NCBI GenBank assembly: GCA_944325115.1
Contig: CALUYX010000003.1
Coordinates: forward strand, 1-38,565
Length of the DNA: 38,565 bases
Direction: 5' to 3'
Source: Candidatus Gastranaerophilales bacterium
GTDB lineage: Bacteria; Cyanobacteriota; Vampirovibrionia; Gastranaerophilales; Gastranaerophilaceae
The notes below the pieces were generated by a model, which had not been told where the DNA came from, did no database searches, and saw only the letters and a program-made list of their open reading frames with translations. Below, one piece after another: positions 30,595 through 38,520 of the stretch (the stretch's first letter is position 1; each line of letters opens with the position of its first letter). The translations under genes were made by a program, and so were the position numbers.

Positions 30595-33474
30595 ATGCAG
30601 CCAAATATTAACAATAATTATAATACTTTTATCAGAAATACTTACGGAAGTTCTATTGTGCAAAACGGCGCATCGCAATCTGTCAGCGTAAACTATCCGC
30701 AATATCAAAATGTGCCTTTGTATCAGTCAAATCCTATTAACCCGACGCTTGTAAATCCTAAAATATCGGGTGGGTATACATATTTAGGCGCAATAAAATC
30801 TCCTTTTGGCGAAGATATTCATACTTATATGCTAAAAAGCGGGCAAAGAGTTGCTATAATGCCTCGTGAGGGCACTACAATTTTAAAAACTTTCGTCGAC
30901 TCAGGCTCAATGAACGAAAGTGACAGAATAAGAGGTATAAGCCATTTTATTGAGCACAATCTGTTTAACGGCAGTGAGAAATTACAGCCGGGGCAGTTTT
31001 TTAAAGATGTAACCAAAATGGGCGCAAGCACAAATGCTTCAACAGATTACGCTCAGACAGATTATTATATTTCATCGGGTATAATGGAACTTGATGACTT
31101 TAAAAAAGCTGCAACAATGCATGCTGATATGATTTTGCGTCCAAAGTTTTATCAGGAAATGCTTGAAAAGGAAAAGGGTCCCGTTACTTCTGAAATTAGT
31201 ATGATTAATGACGATGTCACTACAAAAGCTGCAAATGAAGTTGTCAGAAATCTTTTTCAAATTGATTCAAAGTCAGATAATCTTGTAGCGGGTTCAATTG
31301 AAACGGTAAACAGCCTTTCAAGAAATGATGTTGTGGACTATTGGTCTAAACATTATACGCCTGATAGCCTTTATACCGTTGTTGTTGGAGATGTTAACCC
31401 GAGAGAAGCAATAGAAATCCTTGCTGCCGAATTTAACCAGCCTGCAAGAGTACGCAGTGACTCTGTTACTAAGGAAAAATTAACCCCTATTGAAAAATCC
31501 GTAAGGTTGGACTTTAAATCCCCCATTTCAAACTCTACAAATGTAATTATGGGATTTGCTGCACCTCCTGCAAATAACTTAAAAGATTCAATAGCGCTGG
31601 ATGCACTTGATATTTTACTTGAAGGCAATTCAAACTCGCGACTTTCAAAAGCACTTTCAAATATAAGTTCGTACAGCTATTTAAGTATGCAAAAAGTCGG
31701 ACTAAAAAAAGATGACCCGCAAGCGCTTTTTGTTCAACTAAATACGCCTGTAAACTGTGAGCAGAAAGCAATTGATGCATTTTATGAAGAAATTTCAAAA
31801 TTATCTCAAAATCCTCCAAATGATTATGAGATGATGACGATAAAAAATAACCTAAATAAAATGCTCTCAATGAGTTTTGAAGATGCTGAATCTGTTTGTG
31901 AAACAATAGGTTCAGGCTATCTTGACGGAAATGTTGAGCAAATTTCTCAGATGAAAAACATTATAGACAACCTTGCTCCTCAAGATATAGTAAATGCTGC
32001 ACAAAAATATGTTGATTTAAACAAGGTTTCTATGGCGGTTGTTCATCCTTCAAGCGTAACAAATGAAGATATTATGAACAACTATTCAAAGAGCAAATTT
32101 GTTGCAAAAACAAATCCTCAGAGCGCTGCAGCTTCGATATCTTTTGGCTCAAGAAAAATAGATACAAGTGACATTGAAGAATATAAGCTTGCAAACAATA
32201 CGCATATTGCATTAAATAACTCAAATAAGTCAGATATATGCTATCTTAACTGGCGATTGAGTGCTATGAATGCTATGCCAAAGAACTTGGCTGTTCCATA
32301 TGTTTTGACTGAACTTTTAAACGCAGGTTCGGCACTTAGAAGCAAAGAACAAACAATGCTAGATACAAACGCAAAGGGTATTGAGTATAATTTTGATTCA
32401 AACGGGTTTCAGATACTTGTTAATGCTGATTGCATGTCAAAAGATTTAGATGAAACAATAGCGCTGCTTTCTGAGATTATGTATAATCCAAACTTTTCAC
32501 AGGATGAGTTTGAAAAGGCAAAAGTAAAAATAAGAAATTATTTTCAATCAATCGATAAAGACGGTGCTGATAATATGCTGGTTGAATTATACCCCGGGTA
32601 TTTTGGCTCCCCAAAAGAAATTCTTCAAGGTATAGAATCTGTAACATTAGATGATGTTATAAAGCATTATAATGACACTATAGCAAAAGCTTCTTCTAAT
32701 TATGTTGTAACTGCGCCATTTGATAAGAACCCAAATATGAAGCAAGGCGTAATTAATGCTATAAGTTCAAGCCCTGTAGTGTACAAGGATTTTACTCCGA
32801 CATTTTCAAAAGTATTTAAGCCAAATGATAAAACAAAAGTTATAGTTGATACTGCACAATTGAATCAGGCTCAGATATACAAGACTTATTCTTTTAAAAT
32901 GTCAGGAAATATAAAAGACGAAGTTAAATTTGAGCTACTTAATGAAATTCTTGGCGGCTCGCCCGCTTCAAGGCTTTTTCAAGAGTTAAGAGAAAAGCAA
33001 AAGCTTGCCTATAGAGTATCTTCGCAGGTTCAATCTTTTGAGGATACCGGAATTTTGACTATGTTTATCATGACTACAACCGATGACAAGGCTCAAAATG
33101 ACATTAAGTATGATAATTTGCAAAAATCTCTTGATGGATTTGATGCGCAAATTCAAAAAATTGTAAATGAACCTGTTTCGCAAGAAGAGCTTGATTCTGC
33201 TAAAATGCAGCTTAAACAAAGAATTGCAAAGCAAACAGAGCTTCCTTCTTCTGAAACGGATTTACTTTCAACAAATATGACTTTACCTTATGGTATAAAA
33301 AGAATTGATGAGTATGTAAAAGCAATTGACTCAATAACAGTTGATGACATTCAAAAGGCTGCAAAACATGTCTTTAAAAATAAGCCGACTATGTCGATTC
33401 TTGCAAGTCCTGATACCGTTGAAAATCAAAAAGATTATATATCAACATTGGGTGAAGTAGTACAAGCTCCTTAA
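30595..33474 (+). CDS. M16 family zinc metallopeptidase, two-domain form
   Basis: Pitrilysin/PqqL/processing-peptidase family. The inverted zinc motif H117-FI-E120-H121 and a downstream Glu in GPVTSEISM (about 200) make the N-terminal half catalytic; the C-terminal half (from about 510) repeats the fold with ILGGSPASRLFQELREKQKL, YRVSSQVQS, but lacks HxxEH. At 959 aa it matches the two-halves-in-one-chain architecture that forms a closed chamber around peptides. The first 60 residues are Asn/Gln/Tyr/Pro-rich and no signal peptide is seen, so it is either cytosolic or exported in a non-standard way. It is the only gene in its transcription unit. It ends 4 nt inside the convergent AsmA-like gene. 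Confidence 0.93.
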   Translation: MQPNINNNYNTFIRNTYGSSIVQNGASQSVSVNYPQYQNVPLYQSNPINPTLVNPKISGGYTYLGAIKSPFGEDIHTYMLKSGQRVAIMPREGTTILKTFVDSGSMNESDRIRGISHFIEHNLFNGSEKLQPGQFFKDVTKMGASTNASTDYAQTDYYISSGIMELDDFKKAATMHADMILRPKFYQEMLEKEKGPVTSEISMINDDVTTKAANEVVRNLFQIDSKSDNLVAGSIETVNSLSRNDVVDYWSKHYTPDSLYTVVVGDVNPREAIEILAAEFNQPARVRSDSVTKEKLTPIEKSVRLDFKSPISNSTNVIMGFAAPPANNLKDSIALDALDILLEGNSNSRLSKALSNISSYSYLSMQKVGLKKDDPQALFVQLNTPVNCEQKAIDAFYEEISKLSQNPPNDYEMMTIKNNLNKMLSMSFEDAESVCETIGSGYLDGNVEQISQMKNIIDNLAPQDIVNAAQKYVDLNKVSMAVVHPSSVTNEDIMNNYSKSKFVAKTNPQSAAASISFGSRKIDTSDIEEYKLANNTHIALNNSNKSDICYLNWRLSAMNAMPKNLAVPYVLTELLNAGSALRSKEQTMLDTNAKGIEYNFDSNGFQILVNADCMSKDLDETIALLSEIMYNPNFSQDEFEKAKVKIRNYFQSIDKDGADNMLVELYPGYFGSPKEILQGIESVTLDDVIKHYNDTIAKASSNYVVTAPFDKNPNMKQGVINAISSSPVVYKDFTPTFSKVFKPNDKTKVIVDTAQLNQAQIYKTYSFKMSGNIKDEVKFELLNEILGGSPASRLFQELREKQKLAYRVSSQVQSFEDTGILTMFIMTTTDDKAQNDIKYDNLQKSLDGFDAQIQKIVNEPVSQEELDSAKMQLKQRIAKQTELPSSETDLLSTNMTLPYGIKRIDEYVKAIDSITVDDIQKAAKHVFKNKPTMSILASPDTVENQKDYISTLGEVVQAP

Positions 33475-36400
33475 TTTCCTGTGGTTGTACTTTCTTTGTT
33501 TGCCCATTTGAACGACTTTATTGATGTCGTTTTAGATATCGGTCCGTTTATTAGTACCTGAAAATCTTTTGATTCCGCATTGCTTGTAACGGTACTGAGG
33601 GATGGTATTTTTGCAAGGTCACTGCTGTTAATTTCCGCATAAAGAGGATTTTGAGGGGCTATGGACATAATGGTGTTTAAAATCGCCGCACCCGTTTGCG
33701 GAAGTTTGTTTACAACTTTATCGAGTGAAAATGACCCAAGAGGACCCAGTACACTTACAATATTTGAAGATATTCTGCCAAGAATTTTAAGATTACTGTT
33801 TCCGGTTAAAATGTTGTATTTACCTGTTATAAATAAGCTCATATTCGGTCCTGATGATTCAAGCGAGGTTATATTTGCCCAGCCGTTTGCCAGAGAAATT
33901 TTGCCGTTTATTTTCTTGAATTCACCTGTATTTCTGCCTGTTACGGCTGATATTGTCTGGTTTAGGTTAAGATTCAAAAGGCTTTGGGTTAGGAGGTTGC
34001 CGGCATGTAAGAATCTTTCAAACCTTGCAGCCTCACCGTATTGACCGTTTGATACATCGAAAATAACTTGTCCGTTGAGGCTTCTCATCTGCTGTTCGTA
34101 CGTGTTTCCTCTTGTACTTAATTTTACAATTCCATTTACCGTGCCGCTTGTAAGTATCGAGCTTGCGCCTGCAATCATTGAAACTGCTTTTCTGGCATTT
34201 ATTCCTTTGCCTGTTCCATCAACATTTACTTTTGTATTTGCAATATTGTAGTCGCAAGTGCCTGTTATTTTACCGTCTGCAAATGTTGCTTGAAGATTTG
34301 TAAGTTTAACAAGGTTGTTGTACATATTAAAATCAAATGAAATATTTTCGGCAATCATGGTTCCTGATTTTAGTTTTGCAATTTTTCCCATGCCTTTTTT
34401 AATACTCATAGGTACGCTTGGACCTGCTGTTGTTTGAGTGTTGGGCATTGATGATACAATTTTTAAAAGCGCATCAGAGTCGATGTATGCCGAGTTAAAA
34501 TTTAGTGAATTTATTGTTATATTTTTGCTGATATCGGCTAAAAGTTCGGCATTTCCCGAAAAATCCGAGCCGGCAATCTTTATTCCGTCTGCTCGTGCGT
34601 TTATTATTGACTTTTTGAATTCTAGATATGCGTTTGCAACCGTAGTTTTAAGCTCTTGATAATTGATGTTTGAAAGGTCGGCACTGCCAGCAATCTGTGG
34701 ATTATAAAGAGATGAAGTCAGGGCAAGATTTGCATTTGCATCCAGACTTAATTTGCCTAATGCTGCAACATTGAGTGATAACTTTTCTCCGGTTACAATG
34801 TTTACGGGCGCAAGTGTTGGATTTTTTCCGTAAATATTATTGATTTTTCCGTTTACTGAAACTATATTTTTGTTTTTTGAATTTATGGCACATGTGTTTA
34901 TAAACAATGTGTCGTTTTTTATGTTTAAATCTGCATTTAGTGTGTTTTGAAGTCCTTTTATGTTTTTAATTTCTACAATGCTTATATAGTTTTGCGGATT
35001 TGATGTAATGTTGGCGGATAATTTTAAATTATCAATATTTCCTTTTATGGAGGCGTTAATAGGCATTTGACCCGCTCTGCTTATGTATTTTCTGTTTGCC
35101 TGTGGTACAAACGTAAGGATTGTATCAGGGTTTATTTTGCCGTTTGCTGTTATTGCTATATCAGGCTCACTCATGTAGTCTTTTACCGTGCCTGCGACAG
35201 AAATCTTGCTGCCATGCAAAATAAGGTCAAAGGGGCTTATTTCAAGCGCTTTTGAATCTGCATTTATTGTGCATTTTGGTGCATTTATGTTAAAAGTAGG
35301 GTTTTTAAGATTTGCCTTGAAATTTTGCGCCACAATTTGTGCCAGAAAGTTATTCTTGTCTTTTTTATCAGGCTGTGCGGTGATTTTTATGTTATCAAGC
35401 GTTATGGGCATTGATAAGCTTTTTATAAAAAGCGAGAGTTTTTTTAGTTCTATATTTGCAAGCGGAATGATGTTTTTGAAGTTTCCCGTTGCATCAAGAG
35501 AAATGAGTACTTCTCCTGCGTTAAACTTATAGTCTTGAATATCTTTTTCTTTAATAACGCTAAGACCTGTAGCAAGTTTAATGATATCTGTTATTTTAAG
35601 TGGGTCTGATTTAACTTTTATGTCAAGGTTTGTATTTGTGTCTATTGTGCCTAAAACAGAGAATTTTGAGCCGTTTAGATATGCACCCGTATCTTTTATT
35701 GATATTTTGTTTTCACTGAAGTCTAAATTTGAACTGATTTTATCCAGAGTAATGTTTGCGCTCGGGTATTTGATTGTGCCGTCATTAAGCTCTAACATGC
35801 CTGACGATTTTACCGTTTTAAAATTGCTGTCAAGTTTAAAGTCGCATTTTATAACGCCTGAAGCACTAATTAAATTCAGGCTGTTTTTAATGTTTAACAT
35901 ATCTAAAATTGACTCTGTCAGGCTTTTGATATTTGAAAGATTCAGCTTTTCGGTTTTAATATTTAGCAGTATATTGGACTTTTTGCCTGTTGTCATTGAG
36001 TTGTTTGCACTCAAGAATTCGTCTTTTGAAATATATATTTTTGAGTTTGTGGTGACCTTATTTTTATCAAAATTTGTTTTTATGTAACCTTCAGGGAGCT
36101 GTACACCTTTAACTTTTAATGATATTTTATCTAAATTCACATATCCTTTTGCGCTGAAATTTTCACTCGGGTCTGTGATTTTCAGGTCGACATCAAGTTT
36201 TGACCTGAGTGAGAACAAATCAAGGCTATCAAGCGGATTAAAGTTGATTTTAAAATCTTCTAAATTATTACTTTTTTTATCATCTTGTGATGCAATCTGA
36301 GGAATTTTAGTTTGAAAATTTATGTTAAAATCAACGAAATTCTCATCAAGCCCTTCTCTTTTAAGATAGCCTGTTGTTTTTATTTTGAGCGGACCCTTGA

Positions 36401-37004
36401 GTGTTGCAAGTGATATATTTGTGTCGTTTGCTTTTAAGAGATATTTTTTTGAAGTGTTTTTATCATCAAGCGTGAAGAGAGTATTTTGCACTTCAATATT
36501 TATGTTTCTGAGCTCAAGCGGCAATGAAGCATTTTGCTGTTTTTCTTCGGTTTTTGTGTTTTTAATGGAATTTAAAATGTATTCTTCAAGCGTGTATTTC
36601 TTGCCTTTTGTAAAAACAAGAGCAAGGCTTGCTTCTTTAGCGTATATTTTATCTAAATTTAAGTGTTTTAAAATTAAAGTTGGAAGATTTAGTTCTACAG
36701 ATGGTTCTTTTAGGCTTGCAAAATCGCTTCCATCACTGTATTTTAGCGATATTTTTTGAGCAGAAACCTTTATGCCCAATTTCCAAGTTGTTTTTAATTT
36801 TGGATTGATAAGTTCCAGTTTAAAACCGGTGATATCTTCTATCTGCTTACTTATTTGGGGCGTAAAGTTATTTATGTTTATGACATTTGGAATGATAAAC
36901 AAAAATGAAGCGTATAAAAAACCAATAACCAAGCCTAGCGCAATGAGTGCTTTTTTTGCATAACTGTATAATGCGGGGTTGCTCTTGATTTTTTTGAAAA
37001 TCAT
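33471..37004 (-). CDS. AsmA-like envelope protein, 1177 aa
   Basis: N-terminal membrane anchor (about 19-38, preceded by several Lys), then the typical AsmA opening (NNFTPQISKQIEDITGFKLE) and a very long beta-rich repeat region with few Cys and no catalytic motif. The C-terminal part (ADGKITGTCDYNI, DGTGKGINARKAVSM, LNGQVIFDVSNG, FERFLHAGNLL) resembles the AsmA-like C-terminal domain. Members such as TamB, YhdP and AsmA form hydrophobic grooves bridging inner and outer membrane and are implicated in phospholipid transport. It is last in an operon after exbB-exbD-exbD (17 nt after the second exbD). Which AsmA subfamily it belongs to cannot be decided by eye. Confidence 0.85.
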   Translation of the reverse strand: MIFKKIKSNPALYSYAKKALIALGLVIGFLYASFLFIIPNVININNFTPQISKQIEDITGFKLELINPKLKTTWKLGIKVSAQKISLKYSDGSDFASLKEPSVELNLPTLILKHLNLDKIYAKEASLALVFTKGKKYTLEEYILNSIKNTKTEEKQQNASLPLELRNINIEVQNTLFTLDDKNTSKKYLLKANDTNISLATLKGPLKIKTTGYLKREGLDENFVDFNINFQTKIPQIASQDDKKSNNLEDFKINFNPLDSLDLFSLRSKLDVDLKITDPSENFSAKGYVNLDKISLKVKGVQLPEGYIKTNFDKNKVTTNSKIYISKDEFLSANNSMTTGKKSNILLNIKTEKLNLSNIKSLTESILDMLNIKNSLNLISASGVIKCDFKLDSNFKTVKSSGMLELNDGTIKYPSANITLDKISSNLDFSENKISIKDTGAYLNGSKFSVLGTIDTNTNLDIKVKSDPLKITDIIKLATGLSVIKEKDIQDYKFNAGEVLISLDATGNFKNIIPLANIELKKLSLFIKSLSMPITLDNIKITAQPDKKDKNNFLAQIVAQNFKANLKNPTFNINAPKCTINADSKALEISPFDLILHGSKISVAGTVKDYMSEPDIAITANGKINPDTILTFVPQANRKYISRAGQMPINASIKGNIDNLKLSANITSNPQNYISIVEIKNIKGLQNTLNADLNIKNDTLFINTCAINSKNKNIVSVNGKINNIYGKNPTLAPVNIVTGEKLSLNVAALGKLSLDANANLALTSSLYNPQIAGSADLSNINYQELKTTVANAYLEFKKSIINARADGIKIAGSDFSGNAELLADISKNITINSLNFNSAYIDSDALLKIVSSMPNTQTTAGPSVPMSIKKGMGKIAKLKSGTMIAENISFDFNMYNNLVKLTNLQATFADGKITGTCDYNIANTKVNVDGTGKGINARKAVSMIAGASSILTSGTVNGIVKLSTRGNTYEQQMRSLNGQVIFDVSNGQYGEAARFERFLHAGNLLTQSLLNLNLNQTISAVTGRNTGEFKKINGKISLANGWANITSLESSGPNMSLFITGKYNILTGNSNLKILGRISSNIVSVLGPLGSFSLDKVVNKLPQTGAAILNTIMSIAPQNPLYAEINSSDLAKIPSLSTVTSNAESKDFQVLINGPISKTTSIKSFKWANKESTTTGN

Positions 37005-37021: not shown

Positions 37022-37408
37022 TTAAATTTCGCTTATAGAAATACTTTTTACTCCTGCGTTTCTGGCTGTATCCATAAGTTTAACCACGCAACCGTGCTGG
37101 CTGTCACCTTCTGCTTCTATCATCAGCCCGTCAGTAAGTGTGGCGGATTTTTCTTTTACAGTGTTAAAAAGGTTTGCTTCACTTATTTCTTCGCCGTCAA
37201 TATAGTATTTGTTATCGGCACTAACCGTAACTGTCAAAATTTTAGTTTCTTTTGGTGTGTCTTGTGTTTTTTCAACGTAATCAGGTATTGCAAGGTTTAG
37301 ACCCTGTTGGTCAAGCATTGGCGCTATAACCATCATGATAATAAGCAGTACAAGGAAAATATCCGTCAGCGGTGTTATGTTTATTTCGTTAAATGTTTGT
37401 CTTCTCAT
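37022..37408 (-). CDS. exbD: ExbD/TolR family protein (second copy)
   Basis: Proton-driven motor component, 128 aa. A short basic N terminus (MRRQTFNEINITP) leads to the single membrane helix (about 17-30) with the essential Asp in PLTD (D16), then a periplasmic domain (LTVTVSADNKYYIDGEEIS). It overlaps the first exbD copy by one base (TAATG). Its first 77 bp from the FNEIN codons on are identical in DNA to the other copy, whereas the periplasmic domains differ clearly. Whether it belongs to a TonB, Tol or dedicated system cannot be told without the partner. Confidence 0.92.
   Translation of the reverse strand: MRRQTFNEINITPLTDIFLVLLIIMMVIAPMLDQQGLNLAIPDYVEKTQDTPKETKILTVTVSADNKYYIDGEEISEANLFNTVKEKSATLTDGLMIEAEGDSQHGCVVKLMDTARNAGVKSISISEI
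37318..37394 (-). repeat. 77-bp exact direct repeat, copy in the second exbD
   Basis: Identical base for base to 37746-37822 (offset 428 bp). It covers the codons from FNEINITPLTDIFLVLL to MMVIAP, including all third positions; identity stops abruptly on both sides. Confidence 0.95.
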
Positions 37409-37860
37409 TATTCTTCACCGTTTTCCTTTAGTTCTTTTTGCTCCTTTTTGCTTAGCGGTTCGCCTGCTACAACAAGCTTTTCAAAGCCTGCATTCTGTGC
37501 GCTGCGCATTATTTTCATAATGTCGGAGCTTTTTGCTTTTTCATCGGCCTTTACTACAACCTCTTTTTTCTCAAGGTTGGCAATTATCTTGGAAAGTTCT
37601 CCCTCAAGTGCATCTTCGGTTGTCTTCTCGCCGTTAATAAACAATTCGCCTTCTTTTGTAAGAGAAACTGTGGCATTTTTCTCCTCAATGCTCACGCCCG
37701 AATTAATCTCGGGAATTGTAATGTTTTTATCAAGCGATTGAAAGCTTGGCGCTATAACCATCATGATAATAAGCAGTACAAGGAAAATATCCGTCAGCGG
37801 TGTTATGTTTATTTCGTTAAATACCGGTTTTTTGCCGTCAGCACTAAGTTTTATTGCCAT
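37408..37860 (-). CDS. exbD: ExbD/TolR family protein (first copy)
   Basis: 150-aa motor component: N-terminal cytoplasmic stretch to about 20, membrane helix about 25-38 with the proton-carrying Asp in PLTD (D24), then a periplasmic domain (TVSLTKEGELFINGEKTT, EVVVKADEKAKSSDIMKIMR) and a Lys/Glu-rich C-terminal end. It lies 12 nt after exbB. Two ExbD-like subunits next to one ExbB suggest a heterodimeric peptidoglycan-binding rotor, as ExbD acts as a dimer within the ExbB pentamer; that is inference. Confidence 0.92.
   Translation of the reverse strand: MAIKLSADGKKPVFNEINITPLTDIFLVLLIIMMVIAPSFQSLDKNITIPEINSGVSIEEKNATVSLTKEGELFINGEKTTEDALEGELSKIIANLEKKEVVVKADEKAKSSDIMKIMRSAQNAGFEKLVVAGEPLSKKEQKELKENGEE
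37746..37822 (-). repeat. 77-bp exact direct repeat, copy in the first exbD
   Basis: Partner of 37318-37394. The flanking bases (c versus a, a versus g) and everything beyond differ between the two genes. Confidence 0.95.
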
Positions 37861-37872
37861 ATTTACCTCAAA

Positions 37873-38520
37873 TTACAGAGCAATACTGCCTGATTCGTCT
37901 ACTTTTACTTCCTCATCAGAGTCAATAAAGCTTAAAAATACAAGTTTAATTAATTTGAAATCGCTTTCAAATCTTGAAACAACAGTTTGAAAGTAGTTAT
38001 ACAAAACAACTGCAACAATCGCAACACCAAGACCAAATGCGGTAGCGATAAGCGCCGAAGCTATACCTGTTGCAACTGCTGAAGATTGGTTGCCTTGAAC
38101 TGCTAAGTCTTGGAATGTGTAGAGAATACGAACAACCGTACCAAACAAACCTAAGAAAGGAGCGACACCGCCAATTGTACCAAGGATAGTAAGACCCTTT
38201 TCAAGTTTTCTTGTTGCAAGGCTGGATGAAATATCATAAGCTCTTGAGAAGCCTGTACGTTGTTCCGTGTATATTCTAAGACCTTCATCAACCATTTCGC
38301 TTATAATGCCGCCAAGCTGAACAGAAGCTCTTTGTGCTGCGCCAATATTGTTTTTAACAAGCGCTTTTTGAAGTGTTTGAATAAATTCGCCAATGTTACG
38401 GTCGTTTTTCTTGTAGTAGCAAAATCTGTTGATTGCAACTGCGATTGTAAGAATTGAGCAAATGAATATGGGGGTAAGTACCGGCCAATCCATTTTAATT
38501 GATTCTAAAAAAAGTTCCAT
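37873..38520 (-). CDS. exbB: ExbB/TolQ/MotA family proton channel
   Basis: Stator subunit that converts proton flow into movement of ExbD. The 215-aa product has three membrane helices (about 12-31, 115-135 and 146-168), a cytoplasmic loop and the family motif GTIGGVAPFLGLFGTVVRIL, with ASALIATAFGLGVAIVAVVL in the third helix. A GAGGA ribosome site lies about 8 nt before the ATG. It is first in the operon exbB-exbD-exbD-AsmA-like; the promoter is probably outside the window or in the last 45 bp. No tonB or tolA is in view. Confidence 0.94.
   Translation of the reverse strand: MELFLESIKMDWPVLTPIFICSILTIAVAINRFCYYKKNDRNIGEFIQTLQKALVKNNIGAAQRASVQLGGIISEMVDEGLRIYTEQRTGFSRAYDISSSLATRKLEKGLTILGTIGGVAPFLGLFGTVVRILYTFQDLAVQGNQSSAVATGIASALIATAFGLGVAIVAVVLYNYFQTVVSRFESDFKLIKLVFLSFIDSDEEVKVDESGSIAL

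Follow-up and report, generated by a model that had tools for sequence, protein, structure and literature searches.

The window analyzed here, i.e., the whole 38.6-kb stretch of DNA, comes from a fragmented, metagenome-type genome (1.54 Mb, 114 contigs, 83.9% complete) whose nearest named relatives are Candidatus Gastranaerophilales, and carries two tandem genes, exbD1 and exbD2, next to a partner gene of exbB/tolQ type (Table 1). Both products belong to the ExbD/TolR family (PF02472), as they score over the curated cut-off and carry the helix motif, with its motor aspartate, at the N-terminus. Moreover, exbD2 aligns over its length with Escherichia coli ExbD (PDB 6tyi) and with TolR, and its start overlaps the stop of exbD1 by one base. 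The membrane helix with the motor aspartate, FNEINITPLTDIFLVLLIIMMVIAP, is common to both ExbDs. Scores of exbD1 and exbD2 against the NCBIfam equivalogs tolR (82-84 bits; cut-off 127.3) and ExbD_1 (52-59 bits; cut-off 152.95) fell below the respective cut-offs, and therefore neither a Ton nor a Tol-Pal system was assigned.

Table 1. Genes and sequence features at the exbD locus of the window.
Feature	Position	Strand	Description
exbB/tolQ-type partner	37873..38520	-	215 aa; PF01618, 103.8 bits; upstream, same transcriptional direction
exbD1	37408..37860	-	150 aa; ExbD/TolR family, PF02472, Pfam 87.1 bits (cut-off 25.4)
Tract copy 1	37746..37822	-	Within exbD1; codes for FNEINITPLTDIFLVLLIIMMVIAP with one extra base at either end; from exact repeat and in-frame translation
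Motor aspartate codon D24 of exbD1	37789..37791	-	In the tract; assigned by the INITPLTD motif common to both proteins and by the alignment of exbD2
exbD2	37022..37408	-	128 aa; ExbD/TolR family, PF02472, Pfam 93.5 bits (cut-off 25.4)
Tract copy 2	37318..37394	-	Inside exbD2; peptide and codons as in copy 1; from exact repeat and in-frame translation
Motor aspartate codon D16 of exbD2	37361..37363	-	In the tract; counterpart of E. coli ExbD residue 25 in the alignment
AsmA/YhdP-like gene	33471..37004	-	1177 aa; PF13116, 45.9 bits, just below the cut-off of 46; neighbor, outside the repeat

A homologue of the AsmA/YhdP-like gene was located downstream of the motor genes and on the same strand in 39 of 79 relatives, mainly within one large clade of the order, and one further match (L106) was located downstream on the opposite strand. 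This adjacency suggests that the motor and a protein of the envelope lipid-transport type are functionally linked. Furthermore, in one part of the order exbD1 has ~20-35 more residues C-terminal to the helix than it has in the genus of the window, the carriers of the longer form including L066, L069, L074, L088, L094, L098, L099, and L103.

The two tract copies are identical at 77/77 bp and are spaced by exactly 428 bp. No other direct repeat in the window reaches 30 bp, and a search of the 1.5-Mb assembly with the 77-mer returned two places, both within the exbD1/exbD2 pair. Both copies lie on the minus strand, in register and over the same codons of the two genes; all 25 whole codons are the same between copies (23/23 when Met codons are left aside), whereas the exbD1 and exbD2 flanks outside the tract present ~33% identity per codon position. 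In this regard, a preliminary description of this DNA, which had reported a 77-bp match including all wobble positions between genes with strongly diverged flanks, was accurate on both counts. The peptide is common to both genes and codon usage alone matches ~40-45% of codons, which could lead to ascribing the identity to chance combined with shared codon usage. Nevertheless, the codon usage of the window predicts 11.5 matches in 25 codons against the 25 observed (P ~5e-10), and a per-genome codon-usage null revealed a significant run in 28/80 genomes at a 5% false discovery rate; chance is thereby refuted and retains practically no probability.

Among 15 genomes of the genus, the FNEINITPLTDIFLVLLIIMMVIAP peptide is the same in all genomes and in both copies, yet codon identity over the tract between orthologues is 0.52 for copy 1 and 0.46 for copy 2, and paralogues from different genomes share 0.46 of their codons, with a maximum of 0.68, against 1.00 for the window's own two copies. 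The same peptide is hence written with ~50% codon identity among relatives, in agreement with the earlier argument that protein conservation of the helix cannot explain identical third positions. A constraint acting on the DNA or RNA itself, such as a hidden reading frame, an RNA element, or a selected codon choice for the helix, would fix the bases in both copies, and could be considered given that the helix encoded here is nearly invariant and that short plus-strand frames overlap both copies. However, same-genus orthologues keep only about half of the codons for the same peptide, a difference that therefore excludes constraint at the DNA level, and cross-genome paralogues stand near the codon-usage expectation, which refutes such a constraint at the level of the order; we regard it as extremely improbable. 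Indeed, protein constraint, codon preference, and a concealed signal in the DNA or RNA all fall short as explanations, because their effects would extend to comparisons between genomes. Numerous synonymous differences in this stretch among relatives had been anticipated as evidence against conversion; such differences do exist, but they do not refute conversion, which predicts them.

The main sample comprised 166 Gastranaerophilales genomes, i.e., 80 plus 86 further distinct loci, some of them from six other families. In this sample, codon identity between copy 1 and copy 2 was 0.605 within genomes and 0.430 between different genomes. When comparisons were made with the five nearest genomes, a rough matching of shared codon usage, cross-genome paralogues reached 0.482 and orthologues 0.527, against the within-genome value of 0.605. 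Paralogues within a genome are thus more alike than orthologues between genomes (0.605 vs. 0.527), which is a signature of concerted evolution. The Wilcoxon test of within-genome against cross-genome paralogues gave 1.5e-18, a p-value that overstates the evidence for 166 phylogenetically non-independent genomes, and a count of changes on a tree is a more careful measure than p-values over related genomes. For the 80 genomes, mean within-genome codon identity was 0.63, compared with 0.44 for re-paired copies, and 0.63 was never reached in 20,000 shuffles. Additionally, exact runs of at least 40 bp were found in 14/166 within-genome pairs vs. 7/27,390 cross-genome pairs, and runs of at least 60 bp in seven within-genome pairs vs. 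none across genomes. The within-genome excess spans the conserved peptide and peaks in its middle. Alignment of both genes from related genomes, for which the preliminary description had predicted identity within genomes and synonymous differences between them, therefore gave the predicted outcome in 166 genomes.

A recent tandem duplication followed by fast divergence of the flanks is another way in which a single event would yield identical stretches. However, ExbD matches are present in 373/383 Gastranaerophilales genomes, nearly all of them with two, and the exbD1-exbD2 pair also occurs in other families of the order. Moreover, exbD1 displays 84-91% identity to its orthologues in the genus vs. 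35-39% to exbD2, and no relative was found whose only exbD stands equally far from the two copies, all of which renders a recent duplication scarcely credible. Regarding the ten genomes without an ExbD match, four (G140, G161, G263, and G355) are fairly complete (91-97%) and belong to the same family, and three other genomes (G104, G323, and G045) carry three or four ExbD matches rather than two. Among the matches listed for other Cyanobacteriota, no exbD genes lie side by side, and a plasmid search for exbD returned two distant single matches.

The preliminary description had also proposed that the 428-bp repeat could recombine to give a fused single exbD, but no such fusion was seen among the 373 genomes with an ExbD match. 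Two candidates were rejected: in G341, the only genome seen with a single match, the contig ends just before exbD2, and in G379 the contig ends inside exbD1. The absence of fusions is in keeping with a harmful effect of losing one ExbD, or with conversion without crossing over.

The long exact runs vary in length (80, 77, 74, 70, 67, 64, 60, 59, 53, and 50 bp, and so on). Runs of 80, 77, 70, and 67 bp share their right end, which coincides with the end of the conserved peptide, the run of 74 bp stopping two bases short of it. A half-tract mosaic was identified in L042, in which identity extends from the aspartate codon onward, i.e., over the right half only, with diverged codons to the left. 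Along with the identities given above for tract and flanks and for exbD1 and its orthologues, this mosaic delineates a sharp-ended, homogenized tract set between orthologue-like flanks. On the other hand, the sisters L066 and L069 have one common tract with few new differences, as expected for mutational wear of a shared tract. Most genomes are currently without a long run, and shorter spacing goes with a slightly higher frequency of long runs, a weak correlation (Spearman -0.20, p 0.009).

Since 77 is a k-mer size in some assemblers, a joining error at a k-mer junction of that length could have copied one tract into both places, and the fragmented assembly of the host genome would favor such an artefact. 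As far as titles tell, the genomes with long runs are metagenome assemblies. However, run lengths vary and the longest runs have their right ends where the peptides diverge; contig names of the long-run genomes point to several assemblers or projects (MEGAHIT, IDBA, NODE-type, and other); both exbD genes are intact with their own C-terminal domains; and many genomes present a graded, partly worn identity that a joining error would not give. An assembly artefact is, therefore, very unlikely.

A tree of 80 genomes was built from exbB together with the C-terminal portions of ExbD1 and ExbD2, excluding the tract. On this tree, the 11 carriers of a run of at least 44 bp imply a minimum of 10 changes of state; therefore, most events were independent, denoting recurrence on separate lineages. 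Synonymous sites are near saturation even between the nearest genomes, which mostly obscures the direction of copying. For the window, the codon identity of the tract to the two orthologues of relatives is about equal (0.53 vs. 0.57), and weak hints of exbD1 as donor were found in a few lineages, L070 and L107 included.

Taken together, we consider, with a probability of roughly 0.94, that the 77-bp identity was left by a recent gene conversion between tandem, long-diverged exbD genes, and that such conversion has recurred independently across the order. Direct observations comprise the exact identity, a within-genome identity exceeding that of orthologues and of cross-genome pairs, partial tracts of mosaic type, and the scatter over the tree; the enzymology of conversion and any direction of copying in the window are inferred. 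The preliminary description had named ongoing conversion that homogenizes the motor helix as one of two likely explanations; conversion is supported by 166 genomes, but in place of "ongoing" the process is better called recurrent and episodic, given the majority of genomes without a long run. The other explanation, a recent segmental copy, would be the same event as conversion if confined to the tract.

Under gene conversion, protein selection would hold the helix peptide near-invariant in both copies, leaving a helix segment of ~75 bp as probably the only part of both genes similar enough to pair. Now and then, the tract of one copy would overwrite that of the other, non-reciprocally, across direct repeats ~430 bp apart, putatively by RecA-type homologous recombination or by two template switches at the fork. 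Each overwriting would reset all wobble positions to identity, which point mutations would then erode. The tract stops where protein similarity stops, the flanks presumably being too diverged to pair, and the periplasmic domains would in this way stay distinct. Pre-conversion copies would have had common exact runs of only ~10-20 bp, a length that is short for classical RecA pairing.

ExbB5-ExbD2 and TolQ5-TolR2 are ion-driven motors in which two ExbD helices lie together inside an ExbB pentamer (PMC12215075). As in these complexes, the tract encodes the dimer helix in the ExbB pentamer, with the INITPLTD aspartate corresponding to residue 25 of E. coli ExbD; E. coli has one exbD, whereas here two different ExbDs are encoded beside one exbB. 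Judging from this gene arrangement, ExbD1 and ExbD2 may form a mixed dimer. It is conceivable, although rather doubtful, that conversion is itself selected for, in which case a mixed dimer would need matching helices in one ExbB pore, and conversion would keep the match and purge helix mutations as the periplasmic domains specialize.

Gene conversion is a known process, and the present instance is new and well replicated, standing out by how short the tract is and how far the flanks have diverged. In the literature searched, no paper ties exbD to gene conversion in substance, with one incidental co-mention, and none ties Gastranaerophilales to ExbD. The locus offers a clear, replicated natural case of conversion over ~75 bp between bacterial paralogues otherwise diverged beyond recognition at the DNA level, denoting that a conserved protein motif can sustain a recombination substrate. 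Consequently, the helix codons do not date the exbD duplication, and trees derived from the tract would mislead. Moreover, the hundreds of genomes with the pair make it possible to measure how often short-homology conversion occurs and how long its tracts are.

Concerted evolution of duplicated prokaryotic genes has been described for 26 genes and ascribed to recurrent gene conversion (Wang and Chen, 2018; PMC6053082). Like those genes, the exbD paralogues of one genome are closer to each other, also at synonymous sites, than orthologues are between genomes, with recurrence over the long term, and most of the 26 genes encode subunits of complexes, as exbD does. However, the similarity of paralogues in that study was described for whole genes, whereas in the exbD pair it is restricted to ~75 bp and the remainder is about one third identical; exbD and tolR are absent from the text of that report. 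On the other hand, VlsE of Borrelia undergoes programmed segmental gene conversion (PMC9159922), and in both systems short segments are copied between related sequences. Unlike VlsE, the exbD pair lacks silent cassettes and any sign of diversification, and copying between the exbD genes makes a constant helix uniform in its DNA, with the protein unchanged in the genus of the window.
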